A stretch of 10,000 nucleotides of DNA from contig NZ_JAIWNX010000141.1 of assembly GCF_020217185.1 (NCBI RefSeq), forward strand, positions 1-10,000, in the 5' to 3' direction. Of the stretch, positions 570 to 9,659 are shown one piece after another. Below the pieces are notes generated by a model. It was not told where the DNA came from. It saw nothing but the letters and a program-made list of their open reading frames with translations, and searched no databases. Origin of the DNA: Asticcacaulis sp. Its GTDB lineage: Bacteria; Pseudomonadota; Alphaproteobacteria; Caulobacterales; Caulobacteraceae. Each line of letters opens with the position of its first letter. Position 1 is the first letter of the stretch. A program made the translations under genes and the position numbers.

Positions 570-1466
570 TTATCGGTATGGGGCGGTTTCTTTCAGCAGC
601 CAGTCGCGGAAGGCCTTAAGCGGCGGGTGATTGCCGCGCTCAGCCGGCCAGACGAGGTGGTAGGCTTCACCGGTGGTCAGCGGGGCCTCAAGCGCCGGGA
701 CCAGCGCGCCGGAGGCAAACTCTTCGTCGGCCAGAAACTGCGGCAATAAAGCGACGCCAAGGCCGGAGCGCGCCACCTGCGCTACGGTCGCAAACTGATC
801 GAACAACATGCCGTGTACGTGGTCGGCGGGCGCGCCGTGCGCCTCCAGCCAGTTTTCCCAGGCGTCGGGGCGTGAGGTCAGATGCAGCAAAGGCGCCTGA
901 CGCAGATCGGCAGGCGCGGCAAAGCCATACTGCGCCTTAAGCTCCGGGGCACAGGCCGGGATGACCACTTCGGGCCGCAACAGCGCGCTTTCCGCGCCGG
1001 GCCAGTCGGGGCGGCCGAAATGGATGGCGGCATCGAGCCCTTCGCTGCGGAAATCGAAGACGCCGATGCGCGTGATCAGATTGACCTGAATGCCGGAATT
1101 ATTGCGCAAAAAATCGGGCAGACGCGGGGCCAGCCAGCGCGTGCCAAAGGTCGGCAGTATGGCCAGTTTCAGCGTCCCGCCGTGCGGATTGGCGCGCAGG
1201 CTGAGCGAGGCCGACGAGATGATTTTCAACGCTTCGCGCACCTCGCGCGCATAGGCCTCCCCCCCGGCGGTCAGGCGCACGGTCTGGCGTTCACGGTGGA
1301 ACAGCTCGACCTCCAACTGCGCCTCCAGCGCGGCGATCTGGCGGCTGACGGCGCTTTGGGTCAGGTTCAGTTCGCGCGCGGCGGCGGTGACCGAACCGAG
1401 CCGCGCCGTGGCTTCAAACGCGGCCAGAAGCGACAGGGACGGGAGGAAGCGGCGAGGTGAGCGCAT
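570..1466 (-). CDS. LysR-family transcriptional regulator (GcvA-like)
   Basis: This 298-residue protein has normal LysR length. The N-terminal winged helix-turn-helix covers residues about 9-68, with the recognition region SVTAAARELNLTQSAVSRQI (25-44) and the typical RLTAGGEAY linker after it. A periplasmic-binding-protein-like effector domain follows from about residue 95, with the late motif GLGVALLPQFLADEE near the C-terminus. The start MRSPRRFLPSLSLLAAFEA matches the usual GcvA-type start a few residues before the HTH. It is divergent from the AmaA-like gene and upstream of the OCD-family gene. LysR proteins usually control the divergent operon and themselves, so the likely job is control of the pipecolate/lysine genes; the inducer cannot be read from sequence. 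In Pseudomonas putida a LysR gene also sits beside amaAB. Confidence 0.93.
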   Translation of the reverse strand: MRSPRRFLPSLSLLAAFEATARLGSVTAAARELNLTQSAVSRQIAALEAQLEVELFHRERQTVRLTAGGEAYAREVREALKIISSASLSLRANPHGGTLKLAILPTFGTRWLAPRLPDFLRNNSGIQVNLITRIGVFDFRSEGLDAAIHFGRPDWPGAESALLRPEVVIPACAPELKAQYGFAAPADLRQAPLLHLTSRPDAWENWLEAHGAPADHVHGMLFDQFATVAQVARSGLGVALLPQFLADEEFASGALVPALEAPLTTGEAYHLVWPAERGNHPPLKAFRDWLLKETAPYR

Positions 1467-1562
1467 ATTCGATTTCGGAATGAAGTCTTGTCAAAATGGC
1501 CCTTGTTGAGGCCGTTCGGGCACGGTACAACCGGTTTAGCCATTACGCAAGAGAATGAACCC
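1467..1562. promoter_or_regulatory. Divergent LysR / amaA control region
   Basis: This is the only non-coding space between the LysR gene and the divergent amaA-like gene if amaA starts at TTG 1563. It must then hold both promoters and the LysR operator. At 1467-1481 there is an imperfect dyad, ATTC-N7-GAAT, containing a T-N11-A core (T1468 to A1480) of the type bound by LysR proteins. It abuts the LysR start codon, where binding would be autorepressive. A second dyad, GGCC-N8-GGCC, lies at 1498-1513. No convincing -35/-10 pair was found for the plus strand. Assignment as operator is inference. Confidence 0.4.
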
Positions 1563-2852
1563 TTGGCCCCTGCGCTTGAGCCTCTTACCCACGGACTGTG
1601 GGCCGCCACGGCCCCCGCTGCGCCGCTGACCGTCGCGCTGAGCGGTGATCTGCGCGCCGATGTGGCGGTGGTGGGGGCGGGCTATACCGGCCTGTCGGCG
1701 GCCCTGACCTTGGCCGAAGCCGGGGCAAAGGTGGTGGTGATCGAGGCGCGCGAGATTGGCTTTGGCGGGGCCGGGCGCAATGTCGGGCTGGTCAATGCCG
1801 GTATGTGGGTCATGCCCGACGAACTGCCCAAGGTGCTGGGGCCGGTGCATGGCGAGCGGCTGTTGCAGGTGCTGGGCAACGGCCCGGCGGAGGTCTTCGC
1901 GCGCGTCGATACGCACAATATCGCCTGCGAACTGCGGCGCGAAGGCACGCTGCATTGCGCCGTCGGTGAGGCGGGGGTGCGCGAACTGCGTGACCGGGCG
2001 CAGCAATGGCAGGCGCGTGGCGCCGATGTACGCCTGCTGGATGCCGCCGAAACGCAGCGAATGGTCGGCAGCGACGCCTATCCCATGGCGTTGCTCGATC
2101 GCCGTGCCGGGGTGATTCAGCCGCTGGCCTATGTGCGCGGTCTGGCCACGGCGGCGGTGGCAGCGGGCGTCGATATTCGCAGCGAAAGCCCGGTGGAACA
2201 GATCGAGGTGGCGGGCGATCAGTGGCGCGTGACGACGACCGGCGGCTCGGTGACCGCGCCCAAGGTGATCATGGCCACCGATGCCTACACCAAAGGGCCG
2301 TGGGAGATCATCCGTAAGGAGCAGGTCTGGCTGCCCTATTTCAACTGCGCCACCACGCCCTTGTCGGATGACATTTTGCGCCACATCCTGCCGGAAGGTC
2401 AGGGGGCCTGGGACACGGCGGAGGTCCTGTCCTCCTTCCGTATGGATGCCGCCGGGCGACTGGTCTTCGGCAGCGTCGGGGCCTTGCGCGGGCCAGCGCA
2501 GGGGGTGCATAGCGGCTGGGGGCAACGCGCCATGACGCGGCTGTTTCCGGCGCTCAAAGGCATCGGTTTCGAACACGAATGGTATGGCTGGATCGGCATG
2601 ACCGACGATAACCTGCCGCGCTTCCATCGCTTTGCCGACGGCGTGGTGGGCGTGTCGGGCTATAATGGCCGGGGCATTGCACCGGGCACGGTGATGGGGC
2701 GGATTCTGGCCGAACACGTGCTGGGGGCGCTGTCCGAAGACGATTTGCCGCTGCCGGTGACGACGCCGCAAGAGGCGAAGCACCGGGGGGCCAAAGAGGT
2801 TTATTACGAGGCCGGTGCGGCGGTGCTGCATGCGGTGGAACACAGGTTTTGA
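1563..2852 (+). CDS. amaA: FAD-dependent oxidoreductase, probable L-pipecolate oxidase (AmaA-like)
   Basis: This DAO-family flavoenzyme has 429 residues from this start. Numbered from here, a dinucleotide-binding VVGAGYTGLS motif covers residues 36-45, with GAGYTG at 38-43. The ADP-ribose-binding acidic residue is in VIEA (E61). GFGGAGRNVGLVNAG (66-80) is typical of the AmaA group, and a C-terminal FAD-contacting GYNGRGIAPG begins at 366. AmaA oxidises L-pipecolate to piperideine-6-carboxylate, and the next gene is the enzyme for that product, which is the strongest functional evidence. No ATG start is available before the Rossmann fold. TTG 1563 puts the start about 12 residues before a conserved GLW, as I recall for the Pseudomonas protein, and leaves 96 bp for the divergent promoter. 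An upstream TTG at 1488 (454 residues, GGAA at 1477-1480) is the alternative. Sarcosine/D-amino-acid oxidase-like activity on another imino acid is possible. Confidence 0.82.
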   Translation: MAPALEPLTHGLWAATAPAAPLTVALSGDLRADVAVVGAGYTGLSAALTLAEAGAKVVVIEAREIGFGGAGRNVGLVNAGMWVMPDELPKVLGPVHGERLLQVLGNGPAEVFARVDTHNIACELRREGTLHCAVGEAGVRELRDRAQQWQARGADVRLLDAAETQRMVGSDAYPMALLDRRAGVIQPLAYVRGLATAAVAAGVDIRSESPVEQIEVAGDQWRVTTTGGSVTAPKVIMATDAYTKGPWEIIRKEQVWLPYFNCATTPLSDDILRHILPEGQGAWDTAEVLSSFRMDAAGRLVFGSVGALRGPAQGVHSGWGQRAMTRLFPALKGIGFEHEWYGWIGMTDDNLPRFHRFADGVVGVSGYNGRGIAPGTVMGRILAEHVLGALSEDDLPLPVTTPQEAKHRGAKEVYYEAGAAVLHAVEHRF

Positions 2853-2894: not shown

Positions 2895-4406
2895 ATGAGC
2901 GCGGATACACGTATTTTGCTGGAGTCTCTGGGCGTCACTGGCGGCCACACGGGCGGGACCTTGAAGGTCCATTCGCCCAATACCGGCGAGCTGATCGGGG
3001 AGGTCGTTGAAACAAGCATTGGTCAGGCCAGGGCGCGTATCGACGCAGCGCACGAAGCGTTCCTCCAATGGCGTCTGATCCCGGCCCCCAAGCGCGGCGA
3101 GCTGGTGCGTCTGTTCGGTGAAGAACTGCGCGCGCACAAGGAGGCATTGGGTAAGCTGGTGTCGATTGAGGCCGGTAAGGTCACGTCCGAAGGCCTCGGC
3201 GAAGTGCAGGAAATGATCGACATTTGCGACTTCGCGGTCGGCCTGTCGCGGCAACTGTACGGCCTGACCATCGCCACCGAGCGCGCCGAACACCGCATGA
3301 TGGAAACCTGGCACCCACTGGGCGTGGTCGGCATCATCTCGGCCTTCAACTTCCCCGTCGCCGTGTGGGCGTGGAACGCCTGTCTGGCGCTGGTGTGCGG
3401 CGACGCCATCGTGTGGAAGCCGTCGGAAAAGACGCCGCTGACGGCGCTGGCTACCCATGCCCTGTTTGAGCGCGCCGTCGCCGCCTATAGGGCCGCGGGT
3501 CATGCCGTGCCCGAAGGCCTGTCGGCCCTGCTGATCGGCGGTAAAGAGGTTGGTGAAGCGCTGGTCGAGCATGAGAAGGTGCCGCTGGTCTCGGCCACCG
3601 GTTCGACGGCCATGGGCCGCGCTGTGGGCCCGAAGCTGGCTGCGCGTTTTGCGCGCGCCCTGCTGGAGCTGGGGGGCAATAATGCCGCCATTATTGCGCC
3701 GTCGGCGGACCTCGATCTGGCTTTGCGCGGTGTGGCCTTTGCCGCCATGGGCACGGCGGGTCAGCGCTGCACGACGCTGCGCCGCCTGTTCGTGCACGAA
3801 AGCCTTTATGACACCTTCGTGCCGCGCCTGAAGCAGGCCTATGCCTCGGTGAAGGTCGGTCATCCGCTGGAAGAGGGCACACTGATCGGGCCGCTGATCG
3901 ACGCGCACGCCTTTGGTTTGTTTGAAAAAGCGCTGGACGAAGCGCGCAGCGTCGGCGGTCAGGTCACCGGCGGGGCGCGCGTCGATGTGAACGGTAAGGA
4001 CAGCTATTATGTGCGTCCGGCCATCGTTGAAATGGACGCCCATGCGGGGCCGGTGCTGCGGGAAACCTTTGCGCCAATTCTATATGTTATGAAATATGGA
4101 AATATTCAAGACGCCATCGCCATGCAGAATGCCGTCGGCGCGGGTTTGTCGTCCTCGATCTTCACCAATGACATCCGCGAAGCCGAGCTGTTTGTCTCTG
4201 CGGCCGGGTCGGATTGCGGCATCGCCAATGTCAATATCGGGCCGTCGGGCGCGGAAATCGGCGGGGCCTTTGGTGGGGAAAAAGAAACCGGCGGCGGGCG
4301 CGAATCCGGCTCGGATTCATGGAAAGCCTATATGCGCCGCGCCACCAATACCATCAACTATGGCCGCAGCCTGCCTCTGGCCCAGGGGGTGAAGTTCGAT
4401 GTCTAA
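2895..4406 (+). CDS. amaB: Piperideine-6-carboxylate / 2-aminoadipate semialdehyde dehydrogenase (ALDH7, antiquitin type)
   Basis: At 503 residues this closely follows the antiquitin (ALDH7A1) pattern. Visible sites are the NAD-pocket [11 protein letters not shown] (N152), the general base in LLELGGNN (E258) and the catalytic cysteine in GTAGQRCTT (C292). R291, just before C292, corresponds to the aminoadipate-binding arginine of human ALDH7A1, and the [14 protein letters not shown] helix (99-112) carries the matching acidic residues. The C-terminal [20 protein letters not shown] (460-479) is diagnostic. The enzyme oxidises 2-aminoadipate 6-semialdehyde, in equilibrium with piperideine-6-carboxylate, to 2-aminoadipate with NAD+. 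It starts 42 bp after the amaA stop with a strong AAGGGAAG site and overlaps the next gene by 8 bp. The codons at 4076-4111 are strikingly AT-rich but encode conserved residues. Confidence 0.95.
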
Positions 4407-5568
4407 ATTCGATTGGTCCGATCCGTTCCTTCTCGATGCGCAACTGTCCGACGAGGAGCGCCTGATCCGCGACGCGGCGCACGACTATGCGCAGTCGCAG
4501 CTTCTGCCGCGCGTGCTCAAGGCCTATGCCGAGGAGCAGACCGACCCGGCCATTTTCCGCGAAATGGGTGAGCGCGGCCTTTTGGGCGCGACCCTGCCGG
4601 AAACCTATGGCGGGGCAGGCGCGTCCTACGTCGCCTATGGCCTGATTGCGCGCGAAGTCGAGCGCGTGGACTCCGGCTATCGGTCGATGATGAGCGTGCA
4701 GTCCTCTTTAGTCATGTATCCGATCCATGCCTATGGCTCGGAGGCGCAACGGCAAAAATACCTGCCGAAACTGGCGTCGGGCGAATGGATCGGCTGCTTT
4801 GGCCTGACCGAGCCGGACGCCGGGTCCGACCCCGGTTCCATGCGTGCGACGGCACGCAAAACCGAGGGCGGCTATGTGCTCAATGGCAGCAAAATGTGGA
4901 TTTCCAATTCGCCGATTGCTGATGTGTTCGTGGTGTGGGCCAAGCTCGACGGCGTCATTCGCGGTTTTGTGCTGGACAAGGGGATGAGCGGCCTCAGCGC
5001 ACCGAAAATTCACGGCAAATTGTCTCTACGCGCCTCCATCACCGGCGAGATCGTGATGGATAATGTCGAGGTCGGTGAAGACGCCCTGCTGCCCAATGTC
5101 GAGGGGCTGAAAGGGCCGTTCGGCTGCCTCAACCGGGCGCGCTATGGCATTAGCTGGGGCGTGATGGGGGCGGCCGAAGACTGCTGGCACCGCGCGCGGC
5201 AATACGGCCTCGACCGGCAGCAGTTCGGGCGGCCTCTGGCGCAGACGCAACTGTTCCAGAAGAAGCTGGCCGATATGCAGACCGAGATCACGCTGGGGCT
5301 TCAGGCGTCTCTGCGCGTCGGGCAGTTGTTCGACGCCGGGCAGGTGCAGCCGGAAATGATCAGCCTGATCAAGCGCAATAATTGCGGCAAGGCGCTCGAC
5401 ATAGCCCGCCTGGCCCGTGACATGCACGGCGGTAACGGCATACATGAAGAATACCACGTCATGCGCCATGCCCAGAACCTGGAGACGGTCAATACCTATG
5501 AGGGCACGCACGATGTGCACGCCCTGATCCTCGGTAGGGCGCAGACGGGGCTCCAAGCCTTTTTTTAA
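4399..5568 (+). CDS. gcdH: Glutaryl-CoA dehydrogenase
   Basis: This is a full-length acyl-CoA dehydrogenase of 389 residues with the signatures that separate glutaryl-CoA dehydrogenase from its relatives. These are [19 protein letters not shown] (91-109, including R95, which positions the distal carboxylate), [17 protein letters not shown] (132-148), the FAD/substrate segment around 243-260, [14 protein letters not shown] (340-353), and the catalytic glutamate in [17 protein letters not shown] (E368). It converts glutaryl-CoA to crotonyl-CoA plus CO2, passing electrons to electron-transfer flavoprotein. The start ATG lies inside the last codons of the aldehyde dehydrogenase (8-bp overlap), which indicates translational coupling and one operon. 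The protein ends TGLQAFF, as expected for the family. The gene is followed by a repeat-filled gap. Confidence 0.97.
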
Positions 5569-5597: not shown

Positions 5598-5690
5598 CCC
5601 CCCTCCGGTTCTGCCTTCGGCAGCCCGGTTTCCCCCCGCACAGGTGCAGGGGGATGTAATCCCTGTTTATACCTCCCCGCTGGCGGGGAG
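5598..5690. repeat. Palindromic GC-rich repeat cluster between gcdH and the CoA-transferase gene
   Basis: The 154-bp gap holds at least four consecutive hairpins and no ORF. CTGCC-TTC-GGCAG lies within a 39-bp block (5598-5636) that recurs exactly at 6882-6920. CCCCC-GCAC-AG-GTGC-A-GGGGG spans 5633-5653. GGGAT-GTA-ATCCC is at 5651-5663, overlapping the previous one. CTCCCCGC-TG-GCGGGGAG is at 5673-5690. There is no T-tract after a stem, so it is not a classical intrinsic terminator. Such intergenic palindromes are common in Caulobacterales-like genomes; a role in mRNA stability or partial termination is possible but unproven. Confidence 0.85.
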
Positions 5691-5722: not shown

Positions 5723-6829
5723 ATGAAACCCCTTTCCGGCCTGAAAGTTCTCGAACTGGCGCGCATACTGGCTGGGCCGTGGGCCGGTCAGATTCTGGCC
5801 GATCTGGGGGCCACGGTCGTCAAGGTCGAACGCCCCGGCACAGGCGATGATACACGCGGCTGGGGCCCGCCCTTTATCGGTGATGCGGCGGCCTATTTCC
5901 ACGCCTGTAACCGTGGCAAGTCCTCACTGGCCATCGACATCACTACTCCCGAAGGTCAGGCGGCTATCCGGGATCTGGCGCGCGAGTCCGACGTGCTGAT
6001 CGAGAATTTCAAGGTTGGCGGTCTGCGCCAATATGGCCTCGATTACGACCACCTGAAAGCCGTCAATCCGCGCCTGATCTATGTGTCGATTACCGGTTTC
6101 GGGCAGGACGGGCCCTATGCGCAACGCGCCGGCTATGACTACATCCTGCAGGGCATGTCGGGCCTGATGGACATTACCGGCGACCCGGACGGCGAGCCGC
6201 AAAAGGTAGGGGTGGCGGTGGTCGATCTGTTCACCGGCGTCTATACCTCAACCGCGGTGCTGGCGGCCTTGCGGCAGCGCGACGCGACGGGCGAGGGCTG
6301 TCATATCGACATGGCCCTGTTCGATGTGGCCACGGCCATGCTGGCCAATCAGGCGATGAACTATCTGGCGTCGGGCGTATCGCCGACGCGGCTGGGCAAT
6401 GCGCATCCCAATATCGCGCCCTATCAGGTCTTTGCGGTGAAGGACGGCCACGTCATCGTCGCGGTGGGCAATGACCATCAGTTTTTGCGCTTTTGCGAGG
6501 TGCTGGAAGCGGATTACGTCGCGCAAAATCCGGCCTATGCGACCAATGCCGGGCGGGTCGCGGCGCGGCATCAACTGGTCGCCGAGCTGGAGCCGTTTTT
6601 GCGCAATATGACGCGCGCAGAGTTGCTGACGGCGCTGGAAGCGGCGGGCGTCCCGGCGGGGCCGATCAACCGCATCGAAGACGTGTTCAACGACCCTCAG
6701 ATCGTGCATCGCGGGATGCGTATTGACATCGACGGCGTGCCGGGCGTCGCTTCGCCCATCGTGATCGACGGCGTGCGGATGACGGCGGATACGCCGTCGC
6801 CGGAGTTGAATCAAAAGCACCTCCCCTGA
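5723..6829 (+). CDS. gcdG: CaiB/BaiF class III CoA-transferase, probable succinyl-CoA:glutarate CoA-transferase
   Basis: The 368-residue protein opens with MKPLSGLKVLELARILAGPW, the family N-terminus that binds CoA. It continues with GATVVKVERPGTGDDTRGWGPP (29-50), a CNRGKSSLAID segment (62-72), and VAVVDLFTGVYTS (164-176) with the catalytic aspartate D168 that forms the acyl-anhydride and CoA intermediates. Placement directly after gcdH supports the glutarate to glutaryl-CoA reaction with succinyl-CoA as donor, as described for GcdG and human SUGCT. Family members are usually about 390-410 residues. This one ends SPELNQKHLP where relatives typically continue with a GQHT-like motif and a final helix, and its stop codon lies inside a palindromic repeat, so the C-terminus may be truncated. 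Other dicarboxylate specificities cannot be excluded. Confidence 0.85.
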   Translation: MKPLSGLKVLELARILAGPWAGQILADLGATVVKVERPGTGDDTRGWGPPFIGDAAAYFHACNRGKSSLAIDITTPEGQAAIRDLARESDVLIENFKVGGLRQYGLDYDHLKAVNPRLIYVSITGFGQDGPYAQRAGYDYILQGMSGLMDITGDPDGEPQKVGVAVVDLFTGVYTSTAVLAALRQRDATGEGCHIDMALFDVATAMLANQAMNYLASGVSPTRLGNAHPNIAPYQVFAVKDGHVIVAVGNDHQFLRFCEVLEADYVAQNPAYATNAGRVAARHQLVAELEPFLRNMTRAELLTALEAAGVPAGPINRIEDVFNDPQIVHRGMRIDIDGVPGVASPIVIDGVRMTADTPSPELNQKHLP

Positions 6830-6936
6830 TTTCAGGGGAGGGTGGCCCGAAGGGCCGGGTGGGGTTAATGGCGTAGATGCCCCCCCCTCCGGTTCTGCCT
6901 TCGGCAGCCCGGTTTCCCCCGCCAAAGGCAGGGGGA
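6820..6936. repeat. Palindromic repeat cluster overlapping the CoA-transferase stop codon
   Basis: The block starts with a perfect 10-bp inverted repeat, CCTCCCCTGA (6820-6829) and TCAGGGGAGG (6832-6841). Its left arm contains the last CoA-transferase codons and TGA stop. Next come GGCCC-GAA-GGGCC (6844-6856), the 39-bp block 6882-6920 identical to 5598-5636 (with its CTGCC-TTC-GGCAG hairpin), and CCCCC-GCC-AAA-GGC-A-GGGGG (6916-6935). The 157-bp gap has no ORF of its own. There is no T-tract after a stem, so transcription probably continues into the next gene. Confidence 0.87.
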
Positions 6937-6974
6937 TATAGATGTATTTAGCGCGACCCGACTGGGTAAAGAAT

Positions 6975-6986: not shown

Positions 6987-8624
6987 ATGCGGACTGGCGG
7001 ACAGATTCTCGTTGATCAACTGACGCGCAATGGCGTGGAACGCCTGACCTGCGTGCCGGGCGAGTCGTATCTGGCGGCACTGGATGCGATGTACGATGCC
7101 GATATCGACGTGCTGATCTGCCGTCACGAAGGCGGGGCGGCGATGATGGCCGAAGCCTATGGCAAGCTCACCGGGCGGCCCGGCATCTGCTTTGTGACGC
7201 GCGGCCCGGGGGCGACCAATGCGGCGCACGGCGTGCATATTGCGCAGCATGATTCGACGCCGATGATCCTGTTTGTGGGGCAGGTCGAACGCGCTTTTCT
7301 GGGCCGCGGCGCGTTTCAGGAACTGGACTACGTGGCGGCCTTTGGCGGCATAGCCAAATGGGTGGTGGAAATTTCCGATCCGAAGCGCATCCCGGAAATC
7401 GTCGCCCGCGCCTTCCGCGTGGCCATGCAGGGCCGCCCCGGTCCGGTGGTGATTTCGCTACCCGAAGACATCCTGACCGAGGGGGTCGAGGTCGCCGATG
7501 CGCCGCCGGTCGAGGCGGTGGAGGCCGCGCCGACCCGCGCGGATATGGCGTCGTTTGCGCAAGCGATAAAGGCGGCAGAGCGTCCGCTGATGATCCTCGG
7601 CGGATCGCGCTGGACGGCCGAAGGCTGCGCGGCGGTGGCCGATTTCGTCGCGCGCTACGACATCCCGGTGGCGACCGAGTTTCGCCGGACGTCGCTGTTT
7701 CCGGCGCACCACCCCTGCTATGCGGGTGATCTCGGTTTCGGGCAGAATCCGGCCCTGTCGCAGCGGGTGAAGGACGCCGATCTGCTGATCCTGCTGGGCG
7801 CGCGCATGGCCGAGGTGCCGTCGAATGGCTACACGCTGATCGGCGGTCAAACGCTGGTGCACATCTTCCCGCAGGCTGAGGAAATCGGGAGGGTCTATCC
7901 GCCCGCTCTGGGGATTGTCAGCACGCCGGATCAGTTCGCCAGGGCCTTGTCGTGGATTGATGAAGCCCCATCGCCGCAGATCATCAGAGGCGCGGCGGCG
8001 GCACATCAGGACTGGCTGAAATGGACGAGCACGCCTTCGCCCATCCCCGGCGATTTTCAGTATGGCGAGGTGATGGTGTGGCTGCGCGAGCACCTGCCGC
8101 CGGAGACAATCATCACCAATGGGGCGGGCAATTACGCCATCTGGGTGCATCGCTACTGGCGGCACGAGCGGCCCTTTACGCAGGTCGCGCCGACCTCGGG
8201 CAGCGTCGGCTATTCGGTCCCGGCGGGCATTATGGCCAAACGTCAGTGCCCCGACGCGCCGGTGGTCACCTTTGCTGGTGACGGCTGTTTCCTGATGAAC
8301 GGCAATGAGTTCGCCACCGCCGTGCAATACGACATACCGCTGATCATTATCGTCATCGACAATGGCATGTGGGGCACGATCCGTATGCATCAGGAGCGCG
8401 AATATCCGCACCGCCCGATCGGCACGGAACTGAAGAATCCGGACTTTGCCGCCTATGCCAAGGCCTTTGGCGGGCATGGCGAAACCGTGCGCACCACGGC
8501 GGAGTTTGCTCCGGCCTTTGAACGGGCGCGGGCGTCGGGCAAACCGGCCATACTGCACTGCCTGATCGACCCGCAGGCCATCACGCCGGCTAAAACGCTG
8601 GATCAGGTGTCAGCCGGGGCGTGA
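6987..8624 (+). CDS. Thiamine-diphosphate-dependent enzyme, acetolactate-synthase-like (candidate 2-oxoacid decarboxylase)
   Basis: This 545-residue protein has the three-domain layout of the acetolactate synthase/decarboxylase superfamily. The N-terminal PYR domain (about 1-165) carries VPGESYLAALDAM and the catalytic glutamate in RHEGGAAMMAEAYG (E48). The central TPP_enzyme_M domain spans about 185-330. The C-terminal PP domain has SGSVGYSVPAGIMA (405-418) and the ThDP/Mg motif GDGCFLMNGNEF (431-442) to VIDNGMWG (N459). FAD need not bind, and no ACT regulatory subunit gene lies nearby, which argues against biosynthetic acetolactate synthase. The exact substrate cannot be read from the sequence. 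Following a glutarate CoA-transferase and gcdH in a pipecolate cluster, decarboxylation of 2-oxoadipate to glutarate semialdehyde is a reasonable inference. Alternatives are another 2-oxoacid decarboxylase, a carboligase, or an enzyme of unrelated metabolism. Confidence 0.92.
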   Translation: MRTGGQILVDQLTRNGVERLTCVPGESYLAALDAMYDADIDVLICRHEGGAAMMAEAYGKLTGRPGICFVTRGPGATNAAHGVHIAQHDSTPMILFVGQVERAFLGRGAFQELDYVAAFGGIAKWVVEISDPKRIPEIVARAFRVAMQGRPGPVVISLPEDILTEGVEVADAPPVEAVEAAPTRADMASFAQAIKAAERPLMILGGSRWTAEGCAAVADFVARYDIPVATEFRRTSLFPAHHPCYAGDLGFGQNPALSQRVKDADLLILLGARMAEVPSNGYTLIGGQTLVHIFPQAEEIGRVYPPALGIVSTPDQFARALSWIDEAPSPQIIRGAAAAHQDWLKWTSTPSPIPGDFQYGEVMVWLREHLPPETIITNGAGNYAIWVHRYWRHERPFTQVAPTSGSVGYSVPAGIMAKRQCPDAPVVTFAGDGCFLMNGNEFATAVQYDIPLIIIVIDNGMWGTIRMHQEREYPHRPIGTELKNPDFAAYAKAFGGHGETVRTTAEFAPAFERARASGKPAILHCLIDPQAITPAKTLDQVSAGA

Positions 8625-8632
8625 CGCTGTTT

Positions 8633-8837
8633 CTCCTCCCTGCGCGTTAGCGTGGGGAGGTGGATTTTGCCGAAGGCAAAAGACGGAGGGGGGCGTCTCC
8701 GGGGATGCGTTTTGGTACTGGCTTTAGCCGTGCGTACGCCCAGGCGGCGAGGGGCGATCTTCGGCAGAGTCATCCCCCTCCACCGCTTCGCGGTCCCCCT
8801 CCCCATTGCTGCGCAACAGGGAGGAGAAAGCAAGGCG
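8633..8837. repeat. Palindromic intergenic element, copy A
   Basis: Copy A is a non-coding element bounded by perfect 10-bp terminal inverted repeats, CTCCTCCCTG (8633-8642) and CAGGGAGGAG (8817-8826), about 194 bp in all; similarity to copy B continues to 8837. Internal hairpins include TTTTGCC-GAA-GGCAAAA (8665-8681), ACCGC-TTC-GCGGT (8782-8794) and TTGC-TGC-GCAA (8806-8816). The inner arms GGAGGGGG (8686-8693) and CCCCCTCC (8774-8781) also pair. The open frames across it (for example 8652-8921) are by-products of the repeat and not genes. It lies 8 bp after the ThDP-enzyme stop. Confidence 0.9.
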
Positions 8838-8851
8838 GTTATCGCGCTTCC

Positions 8852-9055
8852 CTCCTCCCTGCGCGTTAGCGTGGGGAGGTGGATTTTGCCGAAGGCAAAA
8901 GACGGAGGGGGGCGACTCTGAGGGTGGGTTTGGCACTGGCTTTAGCCGTGCGTACGCCCAGGCGGCGAGGGGCGATCTTCGGCAGAGTCATCCCCCTCCA
9001 CCGCTTCGCGATCCCCCTCCCCATTGCTGCGCAACAGGGAGGAGAGAGTAAGGCG
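8852..9055. repeat. Palindromic intergenic element, copy B
   Basis: This is a near-identical direct copy of the preceding element at a 219-bp offset, separated from it by 14 bp. The terminal inverted repeats are again perfect, CTCCTCCCTG (8852-8861) and CAGGGAGGAG (9035-9044). The main difference is a divergent patch of about 25 bp after the first hairpin group, with a 1-bp length change. A few substitutions also occur, including one that breaks the outer pair of the ACCGC hairpin (GCGGT becomes GCGAT). The rest of the 8625-9099 gap, on either side of the two copies, shows no gene or RNA that I can recognise. Confidence 0.9.
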
Positions 9056-9099: not shown

Positions 9100-9579
9100 T
9101 CACACCGACGGCGACGGTTCGCGTTTCAGGCGGCGAAGGCAGAAGGTCGAGCGCGTGTGGCGGATGCCGGGGAATTTCAGCAGCTTCTTGCGCAGGAACT
9201 GCTCATAGCCCTCCGTGCCATCGACCGCCGCGATCAGCACATAGTCGTATTCGCCCGTCGTCAGATAGGCGTCGGTCACTTCGGGCAGGTTCAGCACGTA
9301 GCGCGAAAAGGCTTCGATGCGCTCGTCGTCGTGCGATTCGATATTGATTTCGACGATCACCGTATCCGGCTTACCCACCTGTTCCGGATCGAGCAGGGCG
9401 ACATAGCCGGTGATGACGCCATTTTCTTCCATCCGCTTGATGCGCGACCAGCAGGGGGTGGGCGACAGGCCCACCTGATCGGCGATTTCCTGCGTCGTCA
9501 GGCGACAATTGCTGCGCAGCAATCGCAGGATTTTGCGGTCGGTATCGTCAAGGCCACGGCCTTCAGAACTGCGTGACAT
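9100..9579 (-). CDS. Lrp/AsnC-family transcriptional regulator
   Basis: From the chosen start the protein has 159 residues, the usual Lrp length. The N-terminal HTH is LDDTDRKILRLLRSNCR followed by TQEIADQVGLSPTPCWSRIK (29-48). The C-terminal RAM/effector domain spans about residues 73-150, with the TGEYDYVLIAAVDG loop (108-121) typical of amino-acid-sensing members. The ATG at 9577-9579 has GGA 6 bp upstream and matches the family start just before LDDTD. In-frame ATGs up to 9639 would add up to 20 atypical residues. It is divergent from an indolepyruvate:ferredoxin-oxidoreductase-like gene, a partner Lrp proteins often control, and it converges on the ThDP-enzyme gene across the repeat elements. 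The ligand is probably an amino acid, unidentified. Confidence 0.94.
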   Translation of the reverse strand: MSRSSEGRGLDDTDRKILRLLRSNCRLTTQEIADQVGLSPTPCWSRIKRMEENGVITGYVALLDPEQVGKPDTVIVEINIESHDDERIEAFSRYVLNLPEVTDAYLTTGEYDYVLIAAVDGTEGYEQFLRKKLLKFPGIRHTRSTFCLRRLKREPSPSV

Positions 9580-9659
9580 GGGCATTCCATCTGTAGCAGG
9601 CATCCCATTCTGCGGCAAAGCGTCGCAACGGAATGTCATTTTGTCTATGCCCTCAATAG

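Follow-up and report, generated by a model that had tools for sequence, protein, structure and literature searches.

The stretch of DNA analysed here (10,000 nt, hereafter the window) lies on contig 95 of an Asticcacaulis genome of 3.44 Mb that is 95.83% complete. Within it, a LysR gene on the minus strand is divergent from five plus-strand genes, which follow each other in the order AmaA-like, AmaB, GcdH, GcdG and ThDP-dependent enzyme:

570..1466, minus strand: LysR-type (GcvA-like) regulator, likely the regulator of the cluster (NF008352, 258.9 bits, below the cut-off of 288)
1488..2852, plus strand: AmaA-like FAD oxidoreductase, probable L-pipecolate oxidase (open reading frame from TTG 1488; NF050086, 469 bits, below the cut-off of 600)
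2895..4406, plus strand: AmaB, L-piperideine-6-carboxylate / 2-aminoadipate semialdehyde dehydrogenase (NF050084, 800.9 bits, cut-off 730)
4399..5568, plus strand: GcdH, glutaryl-CoA dehydrogenase (solved structures 3d6b, 635.5 bits, and 1sir, 567.5 bits)
5723..6829, plus strand: GcdG-like type III CoA-transferase (ATG 5723, the open reading frame opening at GTG 5693; NF052585 and a solved CoA-transferase matched)
6987..8624, plus strand: ThDP-dependent enzyme, candidate 2-oxoadipate decarboxylase (NF006052/PRK08199, three TPP-enzyme domains, model pLDDT 89.9)
9100..9639, minus strand: Lrp/AsnC-type regulator (PF13404, PF13412 and PF01037 above cut-off)

The names AmaA, AmaB, GcdH and GcdG, under which the initial annotation had listed the neighbours of the ThDP gene, proved to be apt: AmaB exceeds its curated cut-off and also matches solved alpha-aminoadipic semialdehyde dehydrogenases, GcdH matches solved enzymes, and AmaA and GcdG score below the cut-offs of their models. 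No solved structure was matched by the AmaA-like protein at E <= 1e-8. The GcdG protein reaches 534.5 bits against NF052585 (succinate--glutarate CoA-transferase, cut-off 750) and matches a solved succinate--hydroxymethylglutarate CoA-transferase with 326.4 bits; the cut-off of NF052585 looks narrow, as it is passed in none of 289 alphaproteobacterial genomes and yet by a Rhizobium leguminosarum protein (locus L192, 793.6 bits). The LysR-type regulator likely controls the cluster, and its relatives adjoin AmaB or ThDP genes in Pleomorphomonas, Azorhizobium and Azospirillum.

AmaB and GcdH overlap by 8 nt, and the gaps that precede GcdG and the ThDP gene (about 155 nt each) both hold one copy of a 47-nt repeat (5598-5644 and 6882-6928, 94% identical). 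Since in another Asticcacaulis locus (L003) a 4-nt overlap of GcdG and the ThDP gene takes the place of the gap, the element may be an insertion. Between the ThDP and the Lrp-type genes (8633-9055) lie two near-identical tandem copies at a spacing of 218-219 (identical to 97% over 127 nt and to 94% over 80 nt), with a terminator-like stem in each.

A gap between 2-oxoadipate and glutarate, which had been pointed out for this cluster, is indeed there: no gene of the window is assigned to the step, and HglS (PF07063) finds no match in the 95.83% complete source genome.

The ThDP-dependent protein

The ThDP open reading frame is unbroken and comprises 545 codons from ATG 6987, with GGAAAGG just 5' of the start; an alternative in-frame ATG at 6942 would give 560 aa. 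The protein belongs to NF006052/PRK08199 (849.2 bits, cut-off 539) and carries PF02776, PF00205 and PF02775 above cut-off and no other domains, and its nearest named relatives are from Asticcacaulis (94% identity). The ThDP motifs had been described as intact, which is confirmed by the presence of Glu48, Gly431-Asp432-Gly433 and Asn459, which we take to be the ThDP and Mg2+ residues, Glu48 being the catalytic Glu and the rest the GDG...N motif. Glu48 and the Gly-Asp-Gly stretch are kept in 197 of 197 aligned homologues, and Asn459 in 196.

The AlphaFold model (pTM 0.91) agrees as well with acetolactate synthases as with benzaldehyde lyase, 2-hydroxyacyl-CoA lyases and oxalyl-CoA decarboxylase, so that the fold, being common to lyases and carboligases as well, is uninformative on the reaction. 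The best solved match is an acetolactate synthase (TM about 0.9). Domain architecture and fold are thus common to the window protein, acetolactate synthases and the AruI type, whereas its identity to the solved ones is only 26-29% and its scores lie below their curated cut-offs: 314 vs 538.35 bits for TIGR00118 and 339.6 vs 509 for NF006187 (both acetolactate synthase), and 245 vs 500 for PRK07524 (5-guanidino-2-oxopentanoate decarboxylase). The name acetolactate synthase, which one source gives to many of the homologues, was rejected on these grounds; another protein of the genome (L002) does pass such cut-offs.

Glu26, Arg72, His84, Arg107 and Gln111 are invariant in the 197 homologues; 196 of them retain Arg466, 196 retain Arg476 and 195 have His468. 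Residues 466-469 (Arg-Met-His-Gln), which are modelled with a pLDDT below 50, presumably belong to the part closing over the substrate, as judged from the alignment with acetolactate synthases. If they point towards the substrate, this many cationic residues would match a dicarboxylate. However, as the charged active-site residues are near-invariant across the family, including loci with quite different neighbours, the sequence fails to single out 2-oxoadipate from its kin, a point against the 2-oxoadipate reading. Residues specific to lysine loci were also sought, and no conserved charged residue inspected separates the locus groups.

Gene neighbourhoods of related ThDP loci

We regarded as a lysine-context neighbour any relative of at least 50% identity to AmaB, GcdG or GcdH of the window that is encoded within 6.5 kb of a ThDP gene. 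Such neighbours occur at 32 of 197 homologues, namely the window, 18 of 80 loci from a similarity scan of genome contigs, 4 of 100 loci from a class survey and 9 of 16 plasmid loci. The scan loci are the best 80 of at least 579 confirmed ThDP loci, some of them on short contigs. All 18 positive loci are among the 21 of at least 65% identity (the exceptions being L013, L015 and L034), and none is among the remaining 59. As such, the co-occurrence with lysine and glutarate genes, which the initial annotation had put forward for a survey, holds for orthologues of at least 65% identity (18/21) and fails for the broad family (4/100 class loci).

The partners recur in varying combinations, which is the pattern expected of a bridging enzyme: the whole set is found at L003, L004, L009 and L016, AmaB only at, for example, L006, L014 and L018, and GcdH-GcdG only at L019, L023 and L029. 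In the Asticcacaulis loci L003, L004 and L016 the gene order is that of the window, and Chthonobacter (L009) shows LysR-AmaB-DapB-like-GcdH-GcdG-ThDP. Six Pleomorphomonas-type loci read LysR-AmaB-DapB-like-ThDP and a seventh (L008) LysR-AmaB-ThDP, as does Azorhizobium (L014), and in Aquabacter (L023, L029) GcdH-GcdG-ThDP occurs without AmaB. Altogether, AmaB-ThDP is found without a nearby CoA-transferase in 11 of the 18 lysine-context scan loci. Loci of the Bradyrhizobium and Bordetella types lie apart in a tree; DadA-like oxidase and racemase-like protein genes recur around them, together with those for an aminotransferase, RidA, a 2-hydroxyacid dehydrogenase and a GntR regulator.

The 16 plasmid loci were inspected out of 50 listed of 212 matching records. 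AmaB adjoins the ThDP gene in five Azospirillum loci (L190, L195, L203, L204 and L205, the AmaB match of the last being in two pieces), four of which (L190, L195, L203, L204) also hold a LysR gene of 53-57% identity. A GcdG relative lies beside the ThDP gene in R. leguminosarum (L192), Methylobacterium (L194) and Shinella (L198), and two genes away from it in a further Azospirillum locus (L196). In R. leguminosarum the CoA-transferase gene, the one whose product passes the NF052585 cut-off, ends 13 nt 5' of the ThDP gene, and the Shinella CoA-transferase is 75.6% identical to it. Among six Rhizobiaceae plasmid loci, the CoA-transferase is present in these two and none is close by in four (L197, L199, L200, L201). 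In L197 and L199 the ThDP protein shares about 80% identity with that of R. leguminosarum, and an AmaA relative (50-53%) is encoded about 3-5 kb away; near the ThDP genes of L200 and L201, a DAO-family oxidase is encoded together with an aminotransferase.

In the class survey, the ThDP family NF006052 was found above cut-off in 135 of 289 alphaproteobacterial genomes, AmaB in 69 and PF07063 in 13. The 100 class loci, one per genome, were taken from the top of a list of 134 other above-cut-off genomes (G028 left out), several of them ending at contig ends, and the four with a lysine-context neighbour are L099, L112, L118 and L123. The ThDP family and AmaB are both present in 44 genomes (odds ratio 2.5, P 0.0014), a co-occurrence that weighs little because the statistic is uncorrected for genome size or kinship. 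Physical proximity was assessed in 40 of the 43 other genomes with both genes; in the remaining three (G164, G218 and G286) the ThDP matches fall below the roughly 580 bits down to which places were listed. A ThDP gene lies no more than 5 kb from AmaB in three class genomes besides the source (G041, G099, G158), where about 0.14 would be expected if 1.3 ThDP copies per genome are assumed.

Among the matches listed, 7 of the 11 genomes that have HglS as well as AmaB encode the two within the same distance of each other, the HglS matches being full length in G032, G109 and G255 and partial, at 92-96 bits, in G026, G136, G179 and G217. In no genome, again among the matches listed (seven genomes for HglS, four including the source for ThDP), do both HglS and a ThDP gene lie within 5 kb of AmaB. 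HglS is missing in 21 of 22 other genomes with lysine-context ThDP loci and present in G214. Of these 22, 20 encode an AmaB of at least 63% identity (exceptions G301 and G304) and 14 a GcdG of at least 56% identity, eight being without; GcdH of at least 70% identity is found in 14 of 21 genomes examined, the source genome included. Seven Pleomorphomonas-type genomes (G291, G292, G293, G295, G296, G305 and G306; loci L005-L008 and L010-L012) yield no match to GcdG, GcdH or CsiD, so that CsiD was dropped as a candidate glutarate outlet there (0/7). That AmaB-ThDP occurs in them nevertheless speaks against a fixed glutaryl-CoA outlet.

A tree was built from 147 of the 197 homologues, with 50 Bradyrhizobium-type rows left out (49 in an earlier tree). 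One supported group of 52 holds 29 of the 32 lysine-context rows, a proportion that exceeds the natural rate because the rows were partly gathered by their likeness to the window; L112, L123 and L196 fall outside. The neighbour label needs 8 changes on this tree, at least 6 of which are forced by well supported branches, as compared to 29.3 in shuffles.

A candidate 2-oxoadipate decarboxylase

Since the ThDP gene lies between genes that lead from lysine to 2-aminoadipate and genes that use glutarate, and since these pairings recur in other bacteria, it probably encodes the enzyme that removes CO2 from 2-oxoadipate. From our point of view, a non-oxidative 2-oxoacid decarboxylase converting 2-oxoadipate into glutarate semialdehyde and CO2 is the reading to be preferred, with a probability of roughly 0.55. 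The AmaB product 2-aminoadipate would be transaminated to 2-oxoadipate by an enzyme encoded outside the window. ThDP would then add to the keto group, CO2 would leave and protonation would free glutarate semialdehyde (5-oxopentanoate), which could be oxidised to free glutarate either by AmaB itself or by a dehydrogenase of the succinate-semialdehyde type, the best of which in the source genome scores 629.3 bits and hence slightly below the TIGR01780 cut-off of 646.35. At the end of the cluster's pathway, GcdH would yield crotonyl-CoA.

This decarboxylation would be independent of lipoate, CoA and O2, unlike the two known ways past 2-oxoadipate. The 2-oxoadipate dehydrogenase complex (DHTKD1/E1a, E2 and E3) shares the ThDP-dependent decarboxylation of 2-oxoadipate, but is a multienzyme system that yields glutaryl-CoA and NADH (PMC9367764, in part), whereas the window protein consists of PF02775, PF02776 and PF00205 only. 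HglS (DUF1338), the 2-oxoadipate enzyme of D-lysine catabolism in Pseudomonas putida, likewise removes CO2 and adjoins AmaB in the seven class genomes mentioned above, but it is unrelated to the ThDP enzyme, depends on Fe(II) and O2 and forms 2-hydroxyglutarate (PMC7286885, in part). In the open-licence PMC literature no bacterial ThDP-dependent 2-oxoadipate decarboxylase was found: a single hit, PMC10164729, deals with levulinic acid, and the portions consulted of PMC9007349 contain nothing on such a step.

In this context, resting cells of Agrobacterium tumefaciens convert lysine, 2-oxoadipate or glutarate into a biotin precursor via glutaryl-CoA, and CaiB, a glutarate CoA-transferase, is essential for biotin (PMC7645780, in part). 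In R. leguminosarum a CoA-transferase of the CaiB family precedes the PRK08199 gene; the enzyme leading from 2-oxoadipate to glutarate, however, is not named in the part of PMC7645780 used here, nor does that part report an experiment in which the caiB mutant was fed 2-oxoadipate. Taken together, the recurring context in several lineages, the missing HglS and the requirement for free glutarate seen in a related bacterium point to 2-oxoadipate as the likeliest substrate and to plain decarboxylation as the likeliest reaction. The proposal of a 2-oxoadipate decarboxylase is partly supported, by the recurring context and the lack of HglS in 21 of 22 genomes, and tempered by the breadth of the family and its family-wide residues, which, together with the Pleomorphomonas case, keep our confidence from rising further. 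Additional points against it are the four Rhizobiaceae plasmid loci without a CoA-transferase, the presence of HglS in G214 and the possibility that 2-oxoglutarate dehydrogenase acts on 2-oxoadipate. The argument that the decarboxylase would explain the need for a glutarate CoA-transferase has lost weight, as 5-aminopentanoate is another source of glutarate (PMC5653290, in part) and eight of the 22 genomes are without a GcdG match. In Phaeobacter inhibens, the cadaverine and the pipecolate routes both reach glutaryl-CoA (same source, in part).

An unlikely, albeit still credible, alternative is a decarboxylase that is general or acts on another 2-oxoacid and owes its place beside lysine genes to regulation or history, with 2-oxoglutarate dehydrogenase taking 2-oxoadipate to glutaryl-CoA and GcdG salvaging other glutarate. 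The wide spread of the family, seen in 135 of 289 genomes, and the 96 of 100 class loci without lysine-context neighbours would fit such an enzyme, as would the seven AmaB-ThDP genomes without a GcdG or GcdH match and the relatives of 61-64% identity that adjoin genes for a DadA-like oxidase, a racemase-like protein, an aminotransferase, RidA and a 2-hydroxyacid dehydrogenase. It is, however, at odds with lysine-context neighbours that appear in several lineages (at least 6 forced label changes) and are nonetheless clustered (8 vs 29.3 in shuffles), and with the succinate--glutarate type of the CoA-transferase beside the Rhizobium gene.

We consider it quite improbable that the protein is a carboligase or acts on a CoA thioester, in the manner of oxalyl-CoA decarboxylase or 2-hydroxyacyl-CoA lyase, on a substrate supplied by the type III CoA-transferase. 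Formyl-CoA transferase and oxalyl-CoA decarboxylase form gene pairs which the CoA-transferase and ThDP genes resemble, and acetolactate synthases and benzaldehyde lyase are matched by fold alongside 2-hydroxyacyl-CoA lyases and oxalyl-CoA decarboxylases. Yet the CoA-transferase belongs to the succinate--glutarate type and is accompanied by GcdH in the window, 11 of the 18 lysine-context scan loci pair AmaB with ThDP and have none nearby, and the scores against the acetolactate synthase models lie below cut-offs of the kind that L002 of the same genome passes.

Least probable is an upstream decarboxylase that acts on 2-oxo-6-aminohexanoate (open piperideine-2-carboxylate) and leads via 5-aminopentanal and 5-aminovalerate to glutarate: it would also give free glutarate, so that GcdG and GcdH are used, and the related ThDP enzyme AruI removes CO2 from a basic 2-oxoacid (its model PRK07524 giving the 245 bits mentioned), but AmaB, the commonest neighbour, would be bypassed, the PRK07524 cut-off of 500 is missed, and Arg72, Arg107, Arg466, His468 and Arg476, if they line the pocket as the acetolactate synthase alignment implies, suggest an anionic substrate.

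If the 2-oxoadipate decarboxylase reading is true, the large PRK08199 family, which has no function so far, would be given one, lysine catabolism would have a third way past 2-oxoadipate, one that works without a dehydrogenase complex and without oxygen, and the glutarate CoA-transferase of the lysine pathway would gain a rationale. The published gap from 2-oxoadipate via free glutarate to glutaryl-CoA in biotin synthesis (PMC7645780, in part) could then be reduced to one candidate enzyme. One could speculate, rather tentatively, that the enzyme opens a third route for 2-oxoadipate in bacteria, namely in Caulobacteraceae, several Hyphomicrobiales families and Azospirillaceae, replacing HglS beside AmaB, and that in R. 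leguminosarum and Shinella its pair with the CoA-transferase also feeds BioZ-dependent biotin synthesis from lysine or 2-oxoadipate via glutaryl-CoA.

Further recurring neighbours

A DapB-like reductase gene is located between AmaB and the ThDP gene in Pleomorphomonas-type loci (L006:9125-9922) and between AmaB and GcdH in Chthonobacter (L009:6413-7150), with 173.4 and 135.7 bits, respectively, against TIGR00036 (cut-off 122); piperideine-2-carboxylate reductase could be guessed at as its chemical analogue. A DAO-family oxidase recurs near the ThDP gene as well (L014:11752-12933 and L009:11715-12893, with relatives in L099, L126, L200 and L201); no NCBIfam model was above cut-off for the proteins of L014 and L009, and they may be a further pipecolate or amino-acid oxidase.

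In Aquabacter, EutB (ethanolamine ammonia-lyase large subunit) is encoded near GcdH-GcdG-ThDP (L023:5200-6588 and L029:11742-13130); the L029 protein scores 724.5 bits, and that of L023 was assigned through clustering. GcdH-GcdG-ThDP is also present in a metagenome-assembled genome titled Pirellula staleyi (L019), the ThDP protein of which groups with Asticcacaulis, and this grouping may reflect mis-binning or transfer. Finally, a run of genes is conserved in the genus g32 (L083, L084, L086, L087) in which an amidase gene (PF01425, 351.7 bits) lies directly 5' of the ThDP gene, which hints at another substrate for the PRK08199 family.
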